Shown here: positions 8,124 through 41,576 of the stretch, one piece after another
How positions within the stretch are numbered: position 1 is the stretch's first letter
How the letters are laid out: each line of letters starts with the position of its first letter
Assembly (NCBI RefSeq): GCF_000515415.1
Contig: NZ_KI911783.1
Span: 2,346,392-2,410,391, forward strand
Reading direction: 5' to 3'
Source of the DNA: Bradyrhizobium sp. WSM1417
Lineage (GTDB): Bacteria; Pseudomonadota; Alphaproteobacteria; Rhizobiales; Xanthobacteraceae
DNA length: 64,000 nt
Notes under the pieces: generated by a model
The model's database searches: none
What the model saw: only the letters and a program-made list of their open reading frames with translations
What the model was told of the DNA's origin: nothing
Translations under genes and position numbers: made by a program

Positions 8124-8952
8124 ATGATCGACCGCGAGCACGAGTTGTCGATCACCAGGCAGGCGGAAGTTTTACAGATCAGCCGCGGCAGCGTTTATTA
8201 CCTGCCGCGCCCGGTGCCGGATGCCGATCTCGCGATCATGCGGCGTCTCAACCGGCTGCATCTGGAGTTTCCCTTCGCCGGTTCGCGAATGCTGAGAGGC
8301 CTGCTGGCTGCCGAGGGGTGCAAGATCGGCCGCCGACATGTCAAAACGCTGATGCGGCGGATGGGGATAGAGGCGCTCTATCGCCGCCCGCGCACCACCA
8401 GACCGGAGCCCGGCCACAAGATCCACCCATACCTGCTGCGCGGCATGGAGATCACGCGACCGAACCAAGTCTGGGCAATGGACATCACCTACATCCCGAT
8501 GGCGAGTGGGTTCGTCTATCTCGCCGTGGTGCTGGACTGGGCAACACGCCGGGTTTTGTCGTGGCGGCTGTCGATCACCATGGAAGCAGCCTTCTGCGCC
8601 TAGACGCTGGAGGATGCCTTGGCTCGTCACGGCAAGCCGGACATCTTCAATACGGATCAGGGCTCGCAGTTCACCGGACAGGCTTTTACCGGCGTGCTCG
8701 CCGACAACGGCATCGCGATCAGCATGGACGGCAAGGGCGCATGGCGGGACAACGTGTTCGTCGAGCGGTTGTGGCGCAGCGTCAAAATACGAGGAGGTGT
8801 ACCTGCGGGCCTATGATAGCGTCAGCGAGGCGCGCAACTCGATCGGCCGATATCTCGACTTTTATAACAGCAGACGTCCCCATTCGAGTCTTGACGGCAG
8901 CACGCCGGATCAAGCCTACTTCACCCCGCTGCCGCTCCGCCTGGCAGCCTAA
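8124..8952 (+). pseudogene. IS3 OrfB transposase with in-frame stop and frameshift
   Basis: The frame begins MIDREHELSITRQAEVLQIS and carries the HTH_21-like segment, then the rve integrase core: AMDITYIPM with the first catalytic Asp, IFNTDQGSQFTG with the second Asp, and NVFVERLWRSVK with the catalytic Glu. A TAG at 8601-8603 stops the frame (normal codons go on as TLEDALARHGKPDIF), and a further shift near 8795 moves the C-terminal piece (KYEEVYLRAYDS to PLPLRLAA, stop at 8952) into another frame. The element has therefore lost its own transposase both by these lesions and by the IS110 insertion. Confidence 0.8.
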
Positions 8953-9185
8953 CCCCGGCAGACGCTCCACTTATCGATGCGGAGATTCTGTTCAGACAAC
9001 CGGGACCAGCTCACTTTCCAGAGATGACCGCGGACGAGTTCATTCTATTTAAGGGGTATGATTCCGAGGTCTGTTGCAACGCAAAGGCAGCTCACGCGGC
9101 GTTTGACAATCGTCGCGCCTATACTAAGGCAAAGCCTCGAGTGAGTGTCGAGGGTCGCTTCCTCGTGTACTTCGCTTGATCGGTT

Positions 9186-10167
9186 GAGGTCTTTCTGGCG
9201 TTTTCCATCGCTGGAAAGATGCCGCTTCGCGCCGCGCCGCTGCCCGAAGCGCGTGTCGGTCTGCGACGACGATCTCCCGGGGACCGATCTCGGCGACCGT
9301 CATGTCGTCAATTGCTGGCTCGCAGCGAAGGAGTAACGATCATGGGGGCAGAGGCTCGCACTGGTCGGAGAATCCGGCTGCGGCAAGCCCACGATCGCCA
9401 AGCTCGTGCCGAAGCCCGAAACGCCCACCTCCGGCGCCGTGAGCTCCGACGGAAGAATCTCGAGGAGATGCCGCGCAAGGAGATCAAGAATTATCGTCGG
9501 CAGGTGCAGGCCGTGTTTCAGGATCCTTACGCCTCTCTCAACCCACGCCTTACGGTGCGTCGGATCATCACTGAGCCGATACTTGCGCGCTACAAGCGCG
9601 ATCGCGCGACACTCAATGCACGCGTCGCCGAGCTCCTGGAGATTGTCGGCCTGCCGCCGAGGGCGGCCGATCTCCGTCAATTCTCCGACGGACAGCGCCA
9701 GCGAAATCGCGATTGCGCGAGCGCTTGCGCTCAATCCGCGCATCATCATTCTCGATGAGCCGATCTCGGCGTGTCGATCCGCGCGCAGGTGTTGCATCTG
9801 CTGATGGACATCCAGGAAAAGTTCGGCCTGACATATCTTCTGATCGCGCACGATCTCGCACTGGTCGAGCATCTGTCGCCGCGTGTGGCAGTGCTCTACC
9901 TTGGCGGCGTGGTCGAATACGGTCAAAGCGAGCAAATCTTTACCGCTCCAAAGCATCCTTACACGCAGGCGCTGCTGGACGCTGGTCCACGTCTCGATCC
10001 GGACTACACACCAAAAGCAGCCGATAGCTTCGCGATACGCGCTCGAACCGCCCAGCGGCTGCGAGTTTCACCCGCGCTGTCCACATGCGATGGCGGTTTG
10101 CAAGTCGGTGAATCCGGCACTCGTGAAACTCGCTGGCGGCGCGAGGCAGCATGCATTCGCTCAGTGA
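9186..10167 (+). pseudogene. Oligopeptide ABC-transporter ATPase (OppF/DppF type), frameshifted
   Basis: The diagnostic blocks of a peptide-importer ATPase are all present but in different frames. Walker A appears as VGESGCGKPTIAKL near 9378 (Pro in place of the usual Ser). Then come VQAVFQDPYASLNPRLTVR (Q-loop, 9505-9560), a damaged signature FSDGQRQR (normally FSGGQRQR, near 9683), Walker B IIILDEPIS (about 9744), the H-loop LLIAHDLALVEHLS (about 9838) and the family C-terminus GCEFHPRCPHAMAVC (about 10050). At least three frame changes and mutated nucleotide-binding motifs show it is dead. Such ATPases work with OppBCD-type permeases. The only possible partner here is a faint permease trace near 51.9 kb, too distant to be linked. 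Confidence 0.8.
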
Positions 10168-10536: not shown

Positions 10537-11721
10537 ATGGCAATTGCAAAAGCGCCCCAGGCCTTCCCGAGGACAGAATATTTGCGCAGATTGGCAGCAG
10601 TGAAATCGGAAATGGCCCGGCGTGAAATCGATGCTCTTATCATCTTAAGCTGGGGCAACATCACTTATCTGACTGGCAACGTGACGCGTATGCTGGCTCT
10701 ACATGCGCTTGTCGTCTCGATCCAAGATGAAGAGCCGACTCTTATCGTGCGCAAGATGTGCGCGCCAGGAGCAGCTCACCAGAGCTTCATGGTCAGAGAA
10801 AAGATTATCGGCTACTCGGAAAGTCTAGTAGGTAAGGCAAATGCCGATGGCTACGATGCGGTGATTGAGTTCCTCCATGACGTCGGTGTCGCGCGGGCAG
10901 CGATTGGCCTTGAACAGGGTAACCTAATGGCCCCGGCCGTAAACAAGTTCATAGGGAAATTGCCGCAGGCCCGGATCGTCGATTGCACGCGATTGGTGGA
11001 CTGGATCCGCTGCGTTAAATCAGACTTGGAAATCGCGGTTATGCGCGAGGCGGCGGCGCTTGCTGACGCGGCCGTTATGCGGGCTAGAGACGTTATCCGC
11101 CCTGGTGTGCGAGAAGCCGATGCAGCAGTTGAGGTCATGGCGGCGCAGGTTAATGGCGTTAAGGGCGGTCCCGCTGCGACCGGATTGCGGCCGCCGTTGA
11201 TTTCCTCAACCCCGCGCACGGGTACGCCCCATATTTTGTGGAGCGAGAGTGTCTTCTCCGATGGCATGCAGATCAACTCGGAAGTCAGCGGAAATCGGTA
11301 TAACTATCTTGCAGCTCTTATGCGTACCTTCTCAATCGGTGCGCCTGCCGACCGCGTACGCCGTCTACATGATGCGCAGGTCGCTGCTATCGAAACGGCA
11401 CTCGATCTCATCCGACCTGGACTCACTTGCAGTGAGGTCGCGCACGCCATGTACAGTGCGATTGAGAAGCACGGCTTTCCGAAGGAATCCCGGTGTGGCT
11501 ATTCCATTGGGATTGAAAATCAATTCACTGCTTGGATTGAACCGACCGCAAGTTTTGGCAGGGAAGATATGACTGTTCTCCAGACCAACATGACCTTTCA
11601 TCTGATGCTGGGCAACTGGATAGAGGAGGAGTTCGGGGTTACGGTGAGCGAAACAATCCGCGTAACTGACACGGGTGTTGAGGCGCTGACTCGTGCGCCG
11701 CGCGAGCTCTTCGTACTCTAG
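10537..11721 (+). CDS. M24-family (creatinase/Xaa-Pro dipeptidase-like) protein
   Basis: About 394 aa. The N-terminal creatinase domain (residues about 10-150) contains IDALIILSWGNITYLTGN; the C-terminal pita-bread domain (about 160-394) carries RCVKSDLEIAVMREAAALAD, the usual start of that fold, and ends with VTVSETIRVTDTGVEALT. The metal-binding Asp residues of true M24 metallopeptidases are not evident: where DxG...D is expected the protein reads QINSEVSGNRYNYLAALMRTF. That suggests a creatinase- or ectoine-hydrolase-like, metal-independent enzyme cleaving a C-N bond rather than a proline dipeptidase. ATG at 10537 is preceded by TGGAGCC; in-frame starts at 10504 and 10522 are possible. It lies between a dead peptide-transporter ATPase and IS debris, and may be the last intact member of a former uptake/catabolism cluster. 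Confidence 0.75.
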   Translation: MAIAKAPQAFPRTEYLRRLAAVKSEMARREIDALIILSWGNITYLTGNVTRMLALHALVVSIQDEEPTLIVRKMCAPGAAHQSFMVREKIIGYSESLVGKANADGYDAVIEFLHDVGVARAAIGLEQGNLMAPAVNKFIGKLPQARIVDCTRLVDWIRCVKSDLEIAVMREAAALADAAVMRARDVIRPGVREADAAVEVMAAQVNGVKGGPAATGLRPPLISSTPRTGTPHILWSESVFSDGMQINSEVSGNRYNYLAALMRTFSIGAPADRVRRLHDAQVAAIETALDLIRPGLTCSEVAHAMYSAIEKHGFPKESRCGYSIGIENQFTAWIEPTASFGREDMTVLQTNMTFHLMLGNWIEEEFGVTVSETIRVTDTGVEALTRAPRELFVL

Positions 11722-12149
11722 TGTTCTTAACCAGAAGTTCCAGGATCACGTCGTGTTTGCTGGGGCATTGTACTGCTAGAAGGTTCGATCGAAGCGCGCA
11801 TGTCATCGGCGGACTTAGTCCATCGGCTGAGTTGGATGCGCGTCTGATCTGGACGCATTGGCAGCGTCGGGCTGACTGCGATCCGGCGCCCTGATGGGGC
11901 GTCTCACCCACACATCGGACGACAGCGTGCTCCGGCGGTAAGACGCAGACGTCGCTCATTTTGGCCACGAAGTGTGGATCGCTTAAGAGCTTGAACGTCA
12001 CCAGCCAGCGTGGCTGGGGCCTGAAGGCCAACAGCGACAGCGCGCTGGGCTTCGCCATCCGGAACTCCGTCGGGGGGCGTCCTCGGGGAACTCTCCAATG
12101 TTTTCACGATTGCGGATTCGATGTTGACATTCTCAACCTTGGTTGGCGC
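11722..12149. other. Stretch with no recognisable gene
   Basis: About 430 bases between the M24 gene and an IS3 remnant. I see no supported frame or terminator. Confidence 0.4.
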
Positions 12150-13030
12150 CAGGGGCGCGGCTCGTCGTGCAGCCCAAGCGCCGCTCCACAGAACGCCGCC
12201 TGCAGCGTGGCGCGGCTGGCGGTGGCGGTTCCGGAGTTCTTGAACTTTGGCCGCTGCGACGTGTCTGCGATGGATGTGAAGTCGCTCCATGACATGCGGC
12301 AAACTTTGTTTGCGCTGAGATCGGGCGGCTCGGCGAACGAGGTATTAGAACGAGCCCTCACCAGAGGCGGGATTGCTCACCGGAAAGCTATGATGGACCG
12401 CGAGCATGATCTGCCGATCACCAGGCATGGAGGTCTCAAGATCGGCCAGCGGCACCGTTCAGGAATCGGCCCCGCGATCGGTGCAGGATGCCGATCGCGC
12501 GATCAGCCGGCGGCTCAACCGGGTGCATGGGGTTTTCGGTTCGCCGCATGCTGATAGATCTGCCGGCCATCGAACTGTACAACCCCCGCCGGCATGTTAA
12601 GGACGCTGACGCGGCAGATGCGGCTGATGCCAGCCGCGCATAACAAAGCCCGAGCCGGGCCCAAGATCTAACCGTACCTGCTGCGCGAATTCGAGATCAC
12701 GCAATTGAACCAAGTTTGGGCGATGGACATCACCTATATCCCAACGGCTGTCGCTTTGGGTGCTGGACTGCGCGGCGCCTAACACCGCTCAAGCTGGCAA
12801 TTGCCAGTGCGGTTTTCATCAGCGCGCTCGCTAACCGCGGCATCGCCATCAGCATGGAGGACAGGGACACATAGCGGGTCGCGAGCGGCCGTGACGCAGA
12901 GTCAGATATGCGGACGCCGGGGCTTATGACAGTGATCGAGACGCGCAGCTTCGATGGATCGAGATCTGGAGACTTTTGACGGCAGCACGCCGGACGACCC
13001 ACTTCGGCCGCTGCCGCCCGCTGCGTTTTT
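12150..13030 (+). pseudogene. Decayed IS3-family element, copy C
   Basis: Scattered blocks in different frames follow the order of copy B. SAMDVKSLHDM (12268-12300) corresponds to the end of OrfA, MMDREHDLPITRHG (about 12391) to the start of OrfB, and QLNQVWAMDITYIPT (about 12703) to the first catalytic Asp. DGSTPDDPLRPLPP (about 12973-13020) corresponds to the C-terminus. Many indels and large internal deletions are present. It is much older than copies A and B. Confidence 0.65.
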
Positions 13031-13629
13031 CGCCCTGATAAATTCGTATGCACCAGCGTGCCCGCTGCTGAACGAATGAAGGACGGCGCGAACACTGTGC
13101 GGCTAGCAATACCTACAAGCGATCGTACCTTGCGCGAGTAGTGGCGCAGCAGCTTGGTCGCGGATTGAGGCAGATTGTCGTGCGCGTCGTGCGTGTTTGT
13201 GCGAAATGAGTGGCTCGACGCACCTGCGCCGCGCCTGGCGTTTGGCTAAGACGTGCGTGCATCGGTCGAATGCCAACTCGTTCCATGAGCCGTTTAACTG
13301 TGGAGCAAGAACTCGGTCCTGCCCTCAAGAACGTCGTCGGGTGGACGCGGAGCTCAGAGTCCGGGAGCCACACGTCAATTCGCATCAGAGCAGCAGCAAT
13401 ACGGATCGAAATCGAAAAGCACAACGTTGCGGAGGCCGAGCGCGAGCTCGATTGCGCCGGGATTCGCTAGCCCGGCGCCAGATGATTGACGGGAGGTAGA
13501 TCTCGCATATTTCAGCGCTACTAACTAAGCCCGATCTCATGCTAAGCGTCGGGCGGATTGGACGTTTTGGTCATTTGAACTGTCGAACTGACAACAGCAC
13601 GCCTGGTAAATCTGAGATGCAGGCGAGCT
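13031..13629. other. Non-coding stretch, possibly another IS3 trace
   Basis: No intact gene. On the minus strand near 13240-13300 a frame reads VKRLMERVGIRPMHAR, which resembles the RLMR..GIR segment of some IS3 OrfB proteins, but the context does not extend the match. It may be another old IS fragment; otherwise I see nothing. Confidence 0.3.
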
Positions 13630-15282
13630 TCAGCGCCAGCGCTTCTCTTCAGTGTCATAGGCGCCGGCACACGGATCTTTAACGGCGGTCAGCTCTCGTT
13701 TGAGCACCTTGTTGCTGGACGTAGTTCGGGGTAGTGCGCGAGTGAAGGCGATGTACCGCGGCACCTTGAAGGAAGCAAGTCGCGCACGAGCATGATCGAG
13801 AATGCGGTGCATGATCTGATCGTCCGGCGTGACCCCATTCCTCAGTTCAACATAAATCTTAGCCTCCTCCCCGCGCTTGAGATCGTGAACGGGCACGGCA
13901 GCCACATCGGCGACGTCTGGAATTTCGCGGATGACGGCCTCCACCTCGCGTGCAGCGATGTTCTCGCCCGAGCGGCGGATCATGTCCTTGATGCGGCCCA
14001 CCAGCCAATGAAAGCCGAGCTCATCTCGGCGCATCAGATCACCCGTTTTAAACCATTCGCCCTCAAACAAGGCGGCATTTGCTTCCGGCTTATTCCAGTA
14101 GCCCTCAAAAATCCCACGCCCTCTCACCCACAACTCACCAATCTCACCGATGGGCGTAGGGTTGCCGTCCGGGTTCATCAGGCGCAGTTCCCTAAAGGGC
14201 GCGCGAATACCCACGGACCCAAAGGGCGCGAATTCGTCCAGTTGGCTCGTCGTTAGTGTGCCGAAGCCGATTTCCGTCATTCCGTAAGCATCTTGAGTGC
14301 GCACCCGAAAGCGCTTTCGAAAGTCACGTGTGGTTTCAGGACTGGAGCCCCAATTCAAGGTGTGCTTCAGGCTTGTTAACCCGGCTTCGCCAGCGGCTTC
14401 GGCCTGACGCGCGATGAGCTCGGTGATTTGGCACCATTCGATATGGTGCTGCTTGACCCAGCCGATGAAGCGCGTCGAGCTGAGCTGCGGTGCCAAGAAG
14501 AGCGTCCCGCCCTGTCGATACGATCTCAGAAGATCCCCTTGCGGATCGCCATAGAAGAAAGGCTTCGCAGATAAATACCTTCGGTATGGCTGCTCGTCCC
14601 AGCACAGCCCCTGATACGAGCTCACGCCCCAGTAGTCGTGGGTCAACATGCAGCCCTTCGGAAAGCCCGTCGTTCCCGACGTATACTGAATGTTCAATAG
14701 GTCATCTGGGCGGATGTCCTCATCTATCGGAGCGTCATCAGCGCTCTTAAGCAATTTCTCGAGAGTGGTCGTGCTCTCAGAGGGGGGGTGTCCTGCCAGT
14801 ATTATTCGACCCTTCGAGAGGTGTTCCGGCCAAGGCTCCATCGACGAAAATACCCGCCACGCGCTCCTTTGGACAACGGCGAAGCTGGCCTGTGTATCGG
14901 TGAGAACGTATTCGATCTCCCGCGGTGTGTATCGCATGTTAATCGGGACCATGACCGCACCCAGTTTCGCAATCGCGAACCAAAGGATGGGGAATTCGAT
15001 GCAGTTTGGCAACATTACGCCAATGCGATCGCACTTGCGTACGCCAAACGCTCGCAGCGCATGCGCGAGTTTGTTGGACAGCTTGTCCATCTCCGAGTAA
15101 GTCGCGCGCTTGCCGCTCTCGAAAACATTGATAGCAGTTGTTGGCCCGTGCGTTCTCGCTCGCGTCGAAACCAGCTGACCAATAGTAATAGTTTCATACG
15201 CCGTTTCCATGGCCTCTAACTTTGACAACAAATTTGCGACGCACTGTTGCAGCTCCAGCGACCTCAACTTTGGATGGATCAT
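13630..15282 (-). CDS. ATP-dependent acyl-CoA ligase (AMP-forming)
   Basis: A 550-aa member of the ANL superfamily, which activates a carboxylic acid as its adenylate and transfers it to CoA. The P-loop-like motif is IQYTSGTTGFPKGC near residue 191, the A5 motif is DAYGMTEIGFGTL near 319, the A7/A8 hinge region is WFKTGDLMRRDELGFHWLVGRIKDMIRRSGENIAAREVE near 413-452, and a C-terminal NKVLKREL carries the catalytic lysine. Length is normal. The ATG at 15282 has AAGGAG seven bases upstream; the TTG one codon earlier is less well placed. The gene stands alone on the minus strand between IS debris. Closest in style to carnitine/crotonobetaine-type or medium-chain acid ligases, but the substrate cannot be read from sequence. 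Confidence 0.85.
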   Translation of the reverse strand: MIHPKLRSLELQQCVANLLSKLEAMETAYETITIGQLVSTRARTHGPTTAINVFESGKRATYSEMDKLSNKLAHALRAFGVRKCDRIGVMLPNCIEFPILWFAIAKLGAVMVPINMRYTPREIEYVLTDTQASFAVVQRSAWRVFSSMEPWPEHLSKGRIILAGHPPSESTTTLEKLLKSADDAPIDEDIRPDDLLNIQYTSGTTGFPKGCMLTHDYWGVSSYQGLCWDEQPYRRYLSAKPFFYGDPQGDLLRSYRQGGTLFLAPQLSSTRFIGWVKQHHIEWCQITELIARQAEAAGEAGLTSLKHTLNWGSSPETTRDFRKRFRVRTQDAYGMTEIGFGTLTTSQLDEFAPFGSVGIRAPFRELRLMNPDGNPTPIGEIGELWVRGRGIFEGYWNKPEANAALFEGEWFKTGDLMRRDELGFHWLVGRIKDMIRRSGENIAAREVEAVIREIPDVADVAAVPVHDLKRGEEAKIYVELRNGVTPDDQIMHRILDHARARLASFKVPRYIAFTRALPRTTSSNKVLKRELTAVKDPCAGAYDTEEKRWR

Positions 15283-15891
15283 CAATGGACTCCTTCGTTT
15301 TCAGGGGCAAAGAGAACGAGCGTGCCCTCTACGGTGACAAGCTTCCGATAGCGAGCGTTGAATCAACCGGTCCTGCAGCCGGGTGACGGATATTCGCTCT
15401 TCGATAACGGCACCGCAGCATGCGCGCGTTAACATCGGAGCGCATAGCTCGCATCGGGTGGAACGGTACACCCGAACGATGCGAATGTTTTGGATCGTCC
15501 AGAGCACCTCCATTCAAGTTAACTTCCCATTGCTGCACCTTCTGATCGTAATCATCAGCCTCATAGCGGAAGAAACTAGGCGAGTACCTCATCACGGAGG
15601 ATCGAGACACTACCTACTCTGGCGAGGAGCATGAATTTGCTGTTTCATGTAGCCAATAATGAGCGATGAAGAGGGCCGTGAGTTCAAGGTCGCGGTTTGC
15701 CATCTGAAGGAGAGACCGATGGCCGCTCAGGAGGGGCGTAACCAGCAAGTTGACATGAACATTCTCCACGTTGGATGAAGCCCTGTGACGCCGATCCGCC
15801 GCAGGTGTTTCCCGTCAATCATCAGAATAAACCCCAAGCAGCAGGAGATTAAACAGCTGCGCCTCGGCCCCATGACCACAGCAGAACGACA
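15283..15891. other. Upstream region of the acyl-CoA ligase; no gene recognised
   Basis: About 600 bases. Minus-strand frames here lack ribosome-binding sites. The last 200 bases before the IS5 transposase probably belong to dead mobile DNA, but I could not define element ends. Confidence 0.4.
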
Positions 15892-16653
15892 ATGCGGGCT
15901 GGTTTGTTTTGGCTGAATGACAGGCAATGGGCACGTATCGAGCCTCATCTGCCGAGCGGCCTTAGAGGACCGGAGCGGGACGACGACCGCCGTAATATCA
16001 GCGGGATCATTCACATGCTGCAGTCGGGGGCGCGATGGCGCGATTGCCCGCGTGAATACGGTCCTTACACGGCCGTCTACAATCGTTTCACCGCTGGGGC
16101 AAGCGTGGGCGATGGCGCGCCATCTTCGAAGCGCTGGCCAAGCCCGGCCAAGATGCCCGTCGCGCTGTCGCTCGACTCGGCCTCGATCAAAGCTCACCGG
16201 TGTGCCTCCGGCGGAAAAGGGGGGGAGCACAGCCAAGCCATCGGCCGTTCGCGGGGAGGCCCCACGACAAAAATCCATGCGCTGAGCGATCCGCTCTGCC
16301 GGCCGGTCGTCCTGCATCTGACCCCAGGCCAGGATGCCGATATTGCGGCGGCGCCCGACGTTCTGGCGCTCGCGCCGCCCATGAGCGCGCTCCTTGCCGA
16401 CAAAGGGTACGACGGCGACAACCTTCGTGGCGAAATCGTTCGTCGCGGCGCCAAGCAAGTCATTCCCAACAAATCCAACCGCGTCGTCATCCATCGCTTC
16501 AACAAACGCGCCTACAAAGACCAAAATGTCATCGAGCGCCGCTTTTGCAGGCTCAACGACTTCCGGCGCGTCGCCACCCGATACGATAAGCTCGCACGGA
16601 ATTTCATGGCCGCTGTTCATCTCGCCGCTCGCGTCGCATACTGGATCAATTGA
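15892..16653 (+). pseudogene. IS5-family transposase with compensating frameshifts
   Basis: The 253-codon frame looks intact but is internally scrambled. Residues 1-65 (LNDRQWARIEPHLPSGLRGP, GARWRDCPREYGPYTAVYNRF) and about 85-253 (LSLDSASIKAH with the first catalytic Asp, LLADKGYDGDNLR with the second, YKDQNVIERRFCRLNDFRRVATRYDK with the Glu and the C-terminal Y-R-E-type signature) are normal. Between 16089 and about 16160 the conserved segment is in another frame (RWGKRGRWRAIFEALAKPGQ). Two opposite indels therefore replace about 20 residues with nonsense. The protein is probably inactive, although no stop codon was created. Confidence 0.75.
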
Positions 16654-16723
16654 ATCTGGACCCTAAATCGAAAGCCAGACCGAGGCAGCTTACGGCGAGA
16701 AGAATCCAAACGCCTTGCCTAGC

Positions 16724-16975
16724 GCAACGGTTACCGCGACGGAATCTGGTAGACCCGTGCCGGCGCGGTCGAGCGCATCCCCAAGCTGCGCAAGGGTTCC
16801 TACTTCCCGGGCTTCCTGGAGCCGCGCCGGATGGCCGAGAAGGCGCTCACCGCCGTGGTGCAGGAGGCTCTGCAGGGCGTCTCGACCCGCTCGGTCGACG
16901 ATCTGGTGCAGGCCATGGGCATGACGGGCATCTCCAACAGCCAGGTCAACCGTCGTCCAGCAGCAATGTCTTAGG
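16724..16975 (+). pseudogene. Fragment of IS256-family (mutator-type) transposase
   Basis: The plus strand encodes [20 protein letters not shown], followed by ALTAVVQEA, then [20 protein letters not shown] and NSQVNR. This is the N-terminal third of an IS256-type transposase, just before its catalytic domain. The piece is in two frames around 16870 and breaks off at about 16965. It lies directly after the IS5 remnant and is not a functional gene. Confidence 0.75.
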
Positions 16976-17417
16976 CAAAGGCGGGAGACTGGCTAAAGTT
17001 AAACATCTTAGGTGGGCAGCTGCTGCTGCAGGATATGATCCCTCGCCAATACTGCCAGCGAGGCTGTCGCACTTACGACGAATGTCGCAATTCCAACAGT
17101 GTTCGTTGCGTTGGCATTAGATCCGCGGATGTCTCAATTGCTTGTCATTGTGCGAGATTTCGTGACCGCAGTGACTGGTACGACACTTGCTGGATTGCTT
17201 CAGGTCCGTCCGCCCCGGAAAGAAGCACATGCACAGTCGCTCCATCAAGCGAGTATCCCATCGGGAGACAGGGCGCCTCGCAGCGCGTGACGAGAAGTAT
17301 GCTTGTTGCATTCGGTCGAGAACTTCGCAATGCCCGAAGTGGCGCCGAAATCCCCCGGACACGTTCAGTCAAACCACGCAGTACCGGCCTGCCTAAATCG
17401 GCGGCGCGAGGCGCCAA
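16976..17417. other. Upstream region of the luxR gene
   Basis: About 440 bases with no supported gene. No inverted repeat of the lux-box type was recognised immediately upstream of the LuxR start, so autoregulation cannot be claimed. Confidence 0.35.
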
Positions 17418-39141: not shown

Positions 39142-40071
39142 TCATTGGCTGCTCTCGGACGGGGGGAGCATCATGGATGCTTCTTGCAAGAATATGTTGC
39201 GCATCCAAATGCTTGCAGGATCAGTGTTATGAATCGCCGGCCATTGGACGGCCTCAGTGAATGTGAGAAGTCGCAGCGGAGGTTCGATGACCCGCAGGGG
39301 CATCGTCTTTGCGAAATGGCTGACGAGCCTTGATGGCATGCTCGCGATACGGTTGGTGCCCAATAACATAGGCGGAATCATACCAAAACCCTGGACGGCG
39401 ACCTCGGTGCGTATCTTGAAACCATACTCGAGCAAGAGCCATTCATGGAAGGAGGGCCTCAAGAAACGCCCAAACCGAGCTTCGACGTGCCCGATTGACA
39501 TGTATTTCTCGAAAGTGAGTCGCGGTGCTAGCTGCTTATTCATGGGGCAGCCCACGCAGACGAAGGTGTCCTCGAACAGTGTCGCCTTGGGATGCTCACT
39601 CGACATGAACATCTCCGGATACATGAGAAAATCAACTTCACCGCGCCGGAGAAGCTCGTCGGGTTCCTCTGCGGGTGGCAGCAACTCGAAATTGATTGTT
39701 GGAGCTTCCCGCGCGACGCGGTCCACGATTCTTCGAAAAAACACGACAGTCATGAAGTCGGACAGGATGATCTTGAATCGCCGAGTCGATTGAGACGGAT
39801 TGAAGTCGTCCGGAGAGATGATGGACAGCTGAATGTGAGCGAGAGCCTCGCGAATTGGGGCTGCGAGTGCTTCAGCCCGCGGCGTCGGCACAAGTTTTCG
39901 GCCCCTCATCGTGAATAGCTCATCGCGAAAGTAAGAGCGAAGCCGCGCGACGGCGGCACTCATGGCAGGTTGACTGAGGTTGATGCTTCTTGCCGCCGCA
40001 GTGAGGTTGCCTTGCGTCACCAGGGCGTCGAACGCGACGAGAAGATTCAGATCGAGGCCCTTGAAGCGCAT
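39142..40071 (-). CDS. nodD1: NodD1, LysR-family activator of nod genes
   Basis: 309 aa from the ATG at 40071 (longer frames upstream run through the nod box and are not coding). The N-terminus [20 protein letters not shown] leads into the winged helix-turn-helix [20 protein letters not shown], followed by [20 protein letters not shown]. The C-terminal effector domain contains [20 protein letters not shown] and [20 protein letters not shown], all typical NodD. NodD binds the nod box and turns on the nod operon when plant flavonoids or isoflavonoids are present. It is divergent from nodY-nodA with the nod box (40083-40129) just 12 bases upstream of its start, so it probably also controls its own transcription. 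Length is normal. Confidence 0.95.
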
Positions 40072-40082
40072 AATGCTGAGTG

Positions 40083-40129
40083 ATCCACGGTGTGAATATG
40101 TTCTATCGATACAATCGATTTTACCATTT
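40083..40129 (+). promoter_or_regulatory. nod box (NodD binding site)
   Basis: A 47-base element that follows the nod-box consensus: ATCCACGGTGTGAATATG at the left, then CTATCGATACAATCGATTTT and ACCATTT at the right. The conserved ATC...GAT half-sites and the ACAATCGATTTTACC core are clear. It lies between nodD1 and nodY and should drive the operon to the right about 400 bases before the nodY start. Confidence 0.9.
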
Positions 40130-40530
40130 GTACCGAATGAGGATAGCAAACGATAGTTTAGCGAGAAGTCAGATCTATCAGAATGGTTATGAAGCGTTGC
40201 GCCGGGTTCGAGATGGCCTCTCAGCTCAGGGCCAAGGATCAATCAACGCGTCTGGACCGTGCGCTCGCAGTTTCGCGCGTGTTGCGCAAGCCATATCTCG
40301 ATCTAGGACGGTGGGCATCCGCAAACTTGCGTTGGCATATACGACGGGCAAACCTTCGTTTGGCTTTGCCAACCCATTCTATATTCGCCGTGTACCGCCG
40401 TAGAATTGAGCGAACGCTCAACTTGGCCGTAGATTTCCGTCCAGTCAGACCCTCCCGGTTGCGGGTGCCGAATGTGTTGTGGTCGCAGTCGATTGGATTG
40501 CGTCCTTGCTGGGGTGAAATCGTGCGGAAC

Positions 40531-40947
40531 ATGCAAACGAAGATGTCCTTGGCGAATCTGATGCGAGTTGCGCACACGCTCGATGTGGTCTCGATTGTGA
40601 ATGCAGATCGGTCAGTGCGTGAAACTCTCACGGATGTGGTGTTTTCCGCGGGTTACGTGCCCGAACCGTTTGAGAGCGCAGACGGGTTCTTGAAATCGGG
40701 CCGCCGTTCGATCACGTCCTGCCTGATCGCGGAGATGCAGTCGAGCGCGATGAGTGGACTCGATCTTGTCCATCATCTGGTTGCCTCCGGAGGCGCGATT
40801 CCTACGATTCTGCTCACCGACCATTTTGAAGACGACGTGACGCGAGTGATGCAAGCTGGACTCCAGTTCTTGAGAAAACCTTTCGAACGTAGCCAACTGC
40901 TGGCCTGCATCAGGAGCCAGATAATGAATAGGAATTACTCTCTATGA
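40531..40947 (+). CDS. nodY: NodY/NodK-position protein with a degenerate receiver domain
   Basis: 138 aa from the ATG at 40531; the frame is open further upstream, but that part overlaps the nod-box leader and reads like non-coding DNA. The whole protein is a receiver-like domain of FixJ/NodW style: [20 protein letters not shown] (strand 1 to helix 1), [20 protein letters not shown] (the phosphorylation loop), [13 protein letters not shown] (strand 4) and [15 protein letters not shown] with the conserved Lys. The phospho-accepting Asp is replaced by Glu (residue 68) and the acidic pocket reads Asn-Ala-Asp instead of Asp-Asp-Glu/Asp. It therefore probably cannot be phosphorylated. It is the first gene after the nod box and overlaps the nodA start in an ATGA, the place of nodY/nodK. 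The role of that gene is not known. Confidence 0.7.
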
Positions 40948-41576
40948 ACATGATCGCGCCCGAATCCACACGAGGTGCTTCGGCGCGCCCTCCAGTTCGT
41001 TGGAGGCTGTGCTGGGAGAACGAGCTTCAACTCGCTGACCATATTGAATTGTCCGACTTCTTCCGCAAGACCTATGGTCCGACCGGGGCATTCAACGCAA
41101 AGCCCTTTGAAGGTCATCGAAGCTGGGCCGGCGCAAGGCCTGAGATTCGGGCAATCGGCTACGATGATCGAGGCGTCGCGATTCACATTGGCGCACTGCG
41201 CCGCTTCATCAAAGTTGGTGAGGTCGATCTGCTAGTGGCTGAACTCGGACTGTACGGGGTACGCCCGGACCTCGAGGGGCTCGGAATCAGCCACTCCATC
41301 CGCGTGATGTATCCCGTGTTGCGAGATCTTGGCGTACCGTTCGGCTTCGGCACGGTCCGATCTGCCCTGCAGAAACATATTACGAGACTGCTCGGTCGAC
41401 AGGGATTGGCGACCGTTCTGCCAGGGCTTCGTGTCCGGTCCGCTCGGCCGGATATCTATCTCACTGTGCCTCCGACGCGCGTGGAGGAGGTGGTCGGCCT
41501 CGTTCTGCCGATTGCTAGGCCAATGAGCGAATGGCCGGCCGGTGAGATGATTGAACGGAACGGGCCAGAACTGTGA
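40944..41576 (+). CDS. nodA: NodA, N-acyltransferase
   Basis: 210 aa. NodA moves a fatty acyl chain to the free amino group at the non-reducing end of the de-N-acetylated chitin oligomer, the step that makes a lipochitooligosaccharide. Typical stretches are [40 protein letters not shown] and [20 protein letters not shown]; the last is the hallmark of NodA. Length is normal. ATG at 40944 overlaps the nodY stop by four bases (ATGA); a second ATG at 40950 is possible. The stop overlaps the GTG of nodB, so nodY, nodA and nodB are translationally coupled. Confidence 0.97.

Follow-up and report, generated by a model that had tools for sequence, protein, structure and literature searches.

The first gene of the nod operon of Bradyrhizobium sp. 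WSM1417, nodY, encodes a receiver domain, as shown by its sequence and predicted fold, and the acidic metal-binding pair of receivers is, in the aligned sequences, gone from NodY throughout the clade to which the gene belongs (clade A). We consider NodY most likely to be a phosphorylation-independent binding partner controlled by dosage, with a modest and lineage-limited role, and we hold this reading with moderate confidence.

Background

The gene has a long history as the opening gene of the B. japonicum nod operon: a 1990 title cited by PMC4339197 already contains nodYABC. PMC4339197 itself describes nodY as Bradyrhizobium-specific and isoflavone-induced, and induction by flavonoids through NodD/NodW has been reported for B. 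japonicum (PMC5793154, PMC4339197). Passages in other papers report strains in which nodY was not detected (PMC8374602) and strains that have nodK in its place (PMC5596368). As to function, the matches listed in a search of the open-licence literature offered a single statement, made in passing, that Nod-factor synthesis requires nodY (PMC4070659), and the sole paper in that literature to match all search terms for nodY mutants mentions nodY in passing only. Neither a pseudo-receiver reading of NodY nor a NodY-like gene before noeI was among the listed titles and abstract starts of the same literature; database records already name NodY homologues "response regulator" or "CheY-like".

The nodY locus

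The window, that is, the whole 64,000-nucleotide stretch of DNA analysed, carries nodY as the first gene of the nod operon, as the preliminary description had it, with 400 bases between it and a nod box and with an overlap into nodA (Table 1). Scored against the nod-box consensus, this nod box stands well apart from the runner-up within the window (27) and from the best of 30 shuffled 6-kb sequences (28). The gene has both properties by which we recognised orthologues, being the first gene between nod box and nodA and a sequence relative of NodY. It shares its place with NodY/NodK of other bradyrhizobia (nodYABC in B. japonicum), and 19 homologues that cover the domain are 74–96% identical to it, from which it differs by Glu68 in place of Asp, common only to Bradyrhizobium sp. 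RT5a among those seen. A longer NodY (up to 223 residues), as in some database records, was rejected: the upstream frame closes in 61 codons or fewer at 12 of the 24 loci, and the upstream stretch lacks a clear coding signal, with dN/dS of 0.70 in frame vs 1.03 and 0.90 in the other frames.

Table 1. Features of the nodY locus, in window positions
Feature	Position	Strand	Basis or remark
nod box (NodD site) of the nodYABCSU operon	40083..40130	+	37/42 consensus positions
Leader, nod box to nodY, 400 nt	40131..40530	+	conserved DNA; nodY frame closed upstream in 12/24 loci
Conserved leader element (AAACcwTCGTATgg...CCAACCcnTTCnATAT...TACC..CGTA)	40350..40415, approximate	+	alignment
nodY, 138-aa stand-alone pseudo-receiver	40531..40947	+	sequence and predicted fold
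Codons N24 and A25, replacing the acidic pair (DD1, DD2)	40600..40605	+	
Codon GAG, Glu68, phospho-Asp site	40732..40734	+	
Thr96 (conserved T), then Asp97 at T+1	40816..40821	+	
Lys116 (conserved K)	40876..40878	+	
nodA	40944..41576	+	ATGA overlap with nodY stop
nodD-type LysR regulator, divergent	39142..40242	-	listed open frame; true start probably nearer 40072

A receiver without its acidic pair

NodY matches PF00072 above the Pfam cut-off, and its predicted model is a (βα)5 fold, confidently CheY-like, which is what the preliminary description expected of a structure prediction; the sequence likewise confirms the stand-alone 138-residue product described there, with Glu68, N24-A25 and the retained Thr and Lys. 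The five catalytic positions (DD1, DD2, D, T and K) read N, A, E, T and K, so that NodY is not a canonical, phosphorylatable receiver, while T96, K116 and Phe113 (Y-T coupling) are retained. Bourret et al. 2025 define as pseudo-receivers those domains in which any one of DD, D, T and K is missing, with an aspartate-less subset in which Glu is the commonest replacement at the phospho-site (PMC12632262). By this definition NodY, which is without DD1, DD2 and D, is a pseudo-receiver; the window protein and that of RT5a are also aspartate-less, and the other 22 distinct clade A sequences are not. With bacterial pseudo-receivers NodY shares the receiver fold and the absence of catalytic residues, three of five in its case; it differs in standing alone, with no output domain, at the head of a biosynthetic operon behind a nod box.

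The replacement extends across the clade. Among the 23 distinct clade A sequences DD1 is Asn in 21, Thr in one and Ser in one, and DD2 is Ala in 22 and Thr in one, neither position ever being acidic. The T position is Thr in 21, Ile in one and Ala in one, Lys is present at K in all 23, and D+4 is Ser in all 23. Because the acidic pair is replaced in every distinct sequence, every clade A NodY is, as a predicted protein, a pseudo-receiver irrespective of Glu68. The preliminary description was thus right to call the phosphorylation pocket abnormal, but the residue on which it centred, Glu68, is not supported as the key feature; what the clade shares is the loss of the acidic pair. Stand-alone relatives (group S) have D, D, D, T and K in 13/13 sequences and Pro at D+4 in 11/13, and FixJ/NodW-type receivers (group R) have canonical catalytic positions in 17/17 (one with Glu at DD1) and Pro at D+4 in 17/17. 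All 30 S and R sequences have Ala or Gly at T+1, in contrast to clade A, where this residue is Asp in 21 and Gly in two.

Relatives of NodY and distribution of the gene

In the phylogenetic tree the receivers that follow a nod box (clade A and two further sets, B and C) form one group with support of 100/98 among the stand-alone S receivers, and the FixJ/NodW-type rows lie on the other side, apart from one long-branch row; the basal joins are weak (82/25, 84/57). As judged from this tree, NodY shares its ancestry with canonical stand-alone receivers. FixJ-type receivers rank high among the fold and family matches of NodY, but the nearest relatives are stand-alone, and NodY, a 138-residue receiver only, has no LuxR-type (GerE) DNA-binding domain, falls outside the FixJ/NodW group and is not a response regulator of that type.

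Within the genome itself, NodY is closest (43% identity) to a canonical receiver, likewise stand-alone, encoded at G000:C1:2420370-2420741 on the minus strand, 33 kb from nodY and immediately following a NodW/FixJ-type gene. Like NodY it consists of a single receiver domain; unlike NodY it has all five catalytic residues, and the best nod-box score in the surrounding 18-kb region is only 27/42. The neighbouring regulator (227 residues) has Asp71, close to the Asp70 reported for NodW (PMC5591287); the name NodW was nevertheless rejected, as no nodV-like gene was seen upstream on its strand. In locus L018 the regulator and receiver occupy 8338-9501 (minus strand), divergent from a gene at 11132-17149 (plus strand) for a 2005-residue Ser/Thr kinase-ATPase-GAF-PAS-histidine kinase protein.

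Set B comprises receivers before nodA in five genomes and in Microvirga lotononidis. Set C, in nine genomes, comprises receivers 301–397 bases behind a nod box (by automatic start choice), followed on the same strand in 9/9 by an FkbM-type methyltransferase gene that is noeI-like by position and family, the name being inferred; the nearest nodA of these genomes is 18–34 kb off, behind a nod box of its own and without a recognisable NodY. USDA 110 is arranged differently, since a passage of PMC5793154 places noeI of that strain among the genes without a preceding nod box. At the acidic pair the set C receivers (L041-L044, L047-L050, L052) carry Cys and Asp/Asn, and their Thr is replaced by Val/Leu.

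Across the genus, nodA is found in 139 of 265 genomes, at 150 places. In 120 upstream regions, which include the window and the other clade A loci, a profile derived from sets A, B and C together with one deleted copy found 24 full-length NodY (23 belonging to clade A), 15 copies that carry a deletion but stay in one frame, six copies in different frames, two partial copies and 73 regions with none recognisable; five further places, in the set B genomes, have a full-length NodY, which brings the coverage to 125 of 150. A few of the 73 regions are short or have no clear nod box (L133, L141, L179 and L191 among them), and in some a short open frame persists, its start faintly similar. The deleted, NodK-type copies (L105-L112, L115, L116, L118-L122, L129) have lost about 24 internal residues over β4-α4 with the frame kept; 15 of these 16 were scored as one-frame and L116 as partial, and eight (L115, L116, L118-L122, L129) have Asn at the phospho-Asp site. 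At L070-L078, which belong to genomes carrying set C, and at L135, from another genome, 837–879 nt separate nod box and nodA, with no recognisable NodY and with open frames of 262–298 codons running up to nodA.

A proposed dosage-controlled binding partner

With its acidic pair lost, NodY would no longer take part in phosphotransfer and would work by protein contact, its activity following from the amount produced once the nod box is fired by NodD (and NodW). Because phosphorylation is improbable in a protein unable to bind the metal ion, its main control would be the level of expression from the nod box; pseudo-receivers that work through binding or through expression level are discussed in PMC12632262. 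The likeliest partners, as a guess, would be regulators of the NodW/FixJ family or their kinases, with a mild adjustment of nod-gene output as the result. Contact with the NodW circuit suggests itself since nod-box genes of B. japonicum USDA 110, twenty of them, depend on NodW and on NodD as well (PMC5793154), and since kin of NodY lie beside NodW/FixJ-type genes. In the window strain Asp68, no longer able to work with a metal ion, may have drifted to Glu with its negative charge kept. Three observations argue against such a binding partner: NodY changes about three times faster than NodA; with 73 of the 120 nodA regions lacking a recognisable NodY and 23 holding deleted, frameshifted or partial copies, its role would be dispensable in much of the genus; and nearly all intact members retain Asp68, although pure binding would not by itself require that residue. 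The pseudo-receiver reading turns a gene of unclear role into a testable question, namely which kinase or regulator NodY touches and whether dose alone matters.

Selection on nodY

The nodY reading frame is intact in 24/24 clade A loci, with a pairwise dN/dS of 0.39 (95% 0.29–0.53), or 0.31 (0.18–0.50) for the window against the other 23 loci, and 58 of the 138 residues are invariant across the 24. Estimated from these substitutions, purifying selection acts on the intact NodY protein, which evolves about three times faster than NodA (dN/dS 0.13 in the same genomes). The ratio is 0.25 for residues 19–76 and 113–138 and 0.84 for residues 77–112; in a best-window scan of length 36, as extreme an excess arose in 99 of 1000 shuffles for dN/dS and in 27 of 1000 for non-synonymous changes only. 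Relaxed selection confined to residues 77–112 was therefore set aside as suggestive only, the scan being borderline and the segment merged post hoc; seven S and seven R sequences have no such excess, and in set C it is not clear.

These figures also bear on a different reading, in which the NodY protein does little and the gene, decaying, is kept mainly to feed ribosomes into nodA. The ATGA overlap with nodA fits a translated leader of this kind, as do the 15 internally deleted copies that stay in one frame (14 of which can be seen to stop 5 nt short of nodA), the high ratio in residues 77–112, and leader DNA that is about as conserved as nodY itself, with an element that survives where NodY is not recognisable. 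A ratio of 0.25 in the remaining segments, well below 1, and the invariant residues nevertheless speak for a working protein, and the excess in residues 77–112 is only borderline. Moreover, the set C receiver heads a different operon, where about 220–300 bases (reckoned) separate it from the next gene, so that translational coupling would not operate there. We regard this explanation as possible but doubtful, and prefer the dosage-controlled binding partner.

Glu68 and the parallel with PhoB

At codon 68 the window has GAG, and the other 23 of the 24 loci in which nodY precedes nodA have GAC or GAT, one transversion apart; these 23 come from 22 further species genomes of the genus and a plasmid of Bradyrhizobium sp. 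187. Twenty database homologues, out of 43 candidates found by shared short words, have Glu only in RT5a (96% identical) and Asp in 18, one not covering the site. The preliminary description named homologues with a normal Asp as evidence against its idea, and these proved to be the rule: Glu68 was rejected as a conserved trait of NodY, with Asp in 23/23 other nodY loci and 18/18 other homologues covering the site. Counted by distinct sequences, Asp68 is present in 22/23 of clade A, 5/5 B rows and 9/9 C rows. Of six frameshifted nodY copies (as assembled), four have Glu (L113, L130, L131, L139) and one has Asp (L134), the site in L176 being unreadable; L130, L131 and L139 are second nodA places in genomes G182, G190 and G191, which also hold an intact NodY with Asp. 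Glu in four of six such copies favours relaxed constraint, the site appearing to change where constraint is relaxed, and as clade A otherwise has Asp, the Glu of the window and that of the frameshifted copies are most simply taken as separate.

The suggestion that Glu68 mimics phosphorylation gains a specific parallel within the window lineage, to which it is confined by the Asp of the other relatives. The fifth-ranked Foldseek hit for the NodY model is 2jb9, titled as the constitutively active double mutant D10A and D53E of PhoB, and in an alignment with the deposited PhoB sequences A25 falls on D10 and E68 on D53. The same two substitutions thus stand at the aligned DD2 and D positions, engineered in the E. 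coli protein, which has acidic Glu9 at DD1, and natural in NodY, which has Asn24 there. PhoB has a DNA-binding domain.

On this analogy Ala25 and Glu68 would lock NodY in an active-like state in the window lineage only, as a permanently active partner or decoy whose production requires active NodD, which we think unlikely. The PhoB pair is the best argument for it, although one that would reach the window lineage only: Glu alone is often insufficient and a second change needed, with PhoB the named example (PMC4395418). The retained T96, K116 and Phe113 agree with it, and the Glu of RT5a speaks against a sequencing error. No other intact relative seen has Glu, however, and the frameshifted copies that do are unlikely to function. 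K+2 of NodY is Phe, a residue that at this position biases CheY towards inactive conformations (PMC12632262), the natural Glu receiver ChxR stays active after replacement (PMC4395418; see also PMC12632262), and the predicted model is blind to the difference between the states, activated and inactive PhoP chains scoring 18.9 and 18.8. The A25+E68 lineage beside its A25+D68 relatives is a natural pair for asking whether Glu switches a receiver on in its own setting.

A broader scheme, speculative and in our view rather improbable, would see the nod-box receivers as a family of stand-alone pseudo-receivers that heads Nod-factor operons (nodABC, and the noeI-like gene in nine genomes), was recruited from a kinase-linked stand-alone receiver, supplies phosphorylation-free feedback adaptors to NodW-type regulation, and is locked on in the window strain by the equivalent of PhoB D10A/D53E. 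That NodY with Asp68 slowly accepts phosphate from NodV-like kinases in the relatives, as a sink lost in the window strain, is highly improbable despite the prevalence of Asp68, given that neither metal-binding position is acidic in any clade A sequence, that a bulky Asp occupies T+1 in nearly all of them, and that in GlnR and RamR the Asp is needed for dimers and not for phosphorylation (PMC12632262).

The conserved leader element

The leader has no match in Rfam and yielded no convincing RNA fold: the consensus fold reaches only -4.2 kcal/mol over 448 columns, with some two-sided change in 10 of 23 predicted pairs. The conserved element has one match in the genome at no more than 3 mismatches. 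It scores at least 15/20 in 93 of 110 nodA upstream regions with a nod-box score of at least 35, and in 0 of 60 shuffled controls. It lies 199–238 nt after the nod box in the 47 loci scoring at least 17, its best match is about 510 nt after the box in L070, L076 and L135, and a related sequence aligns in three set C leaders.
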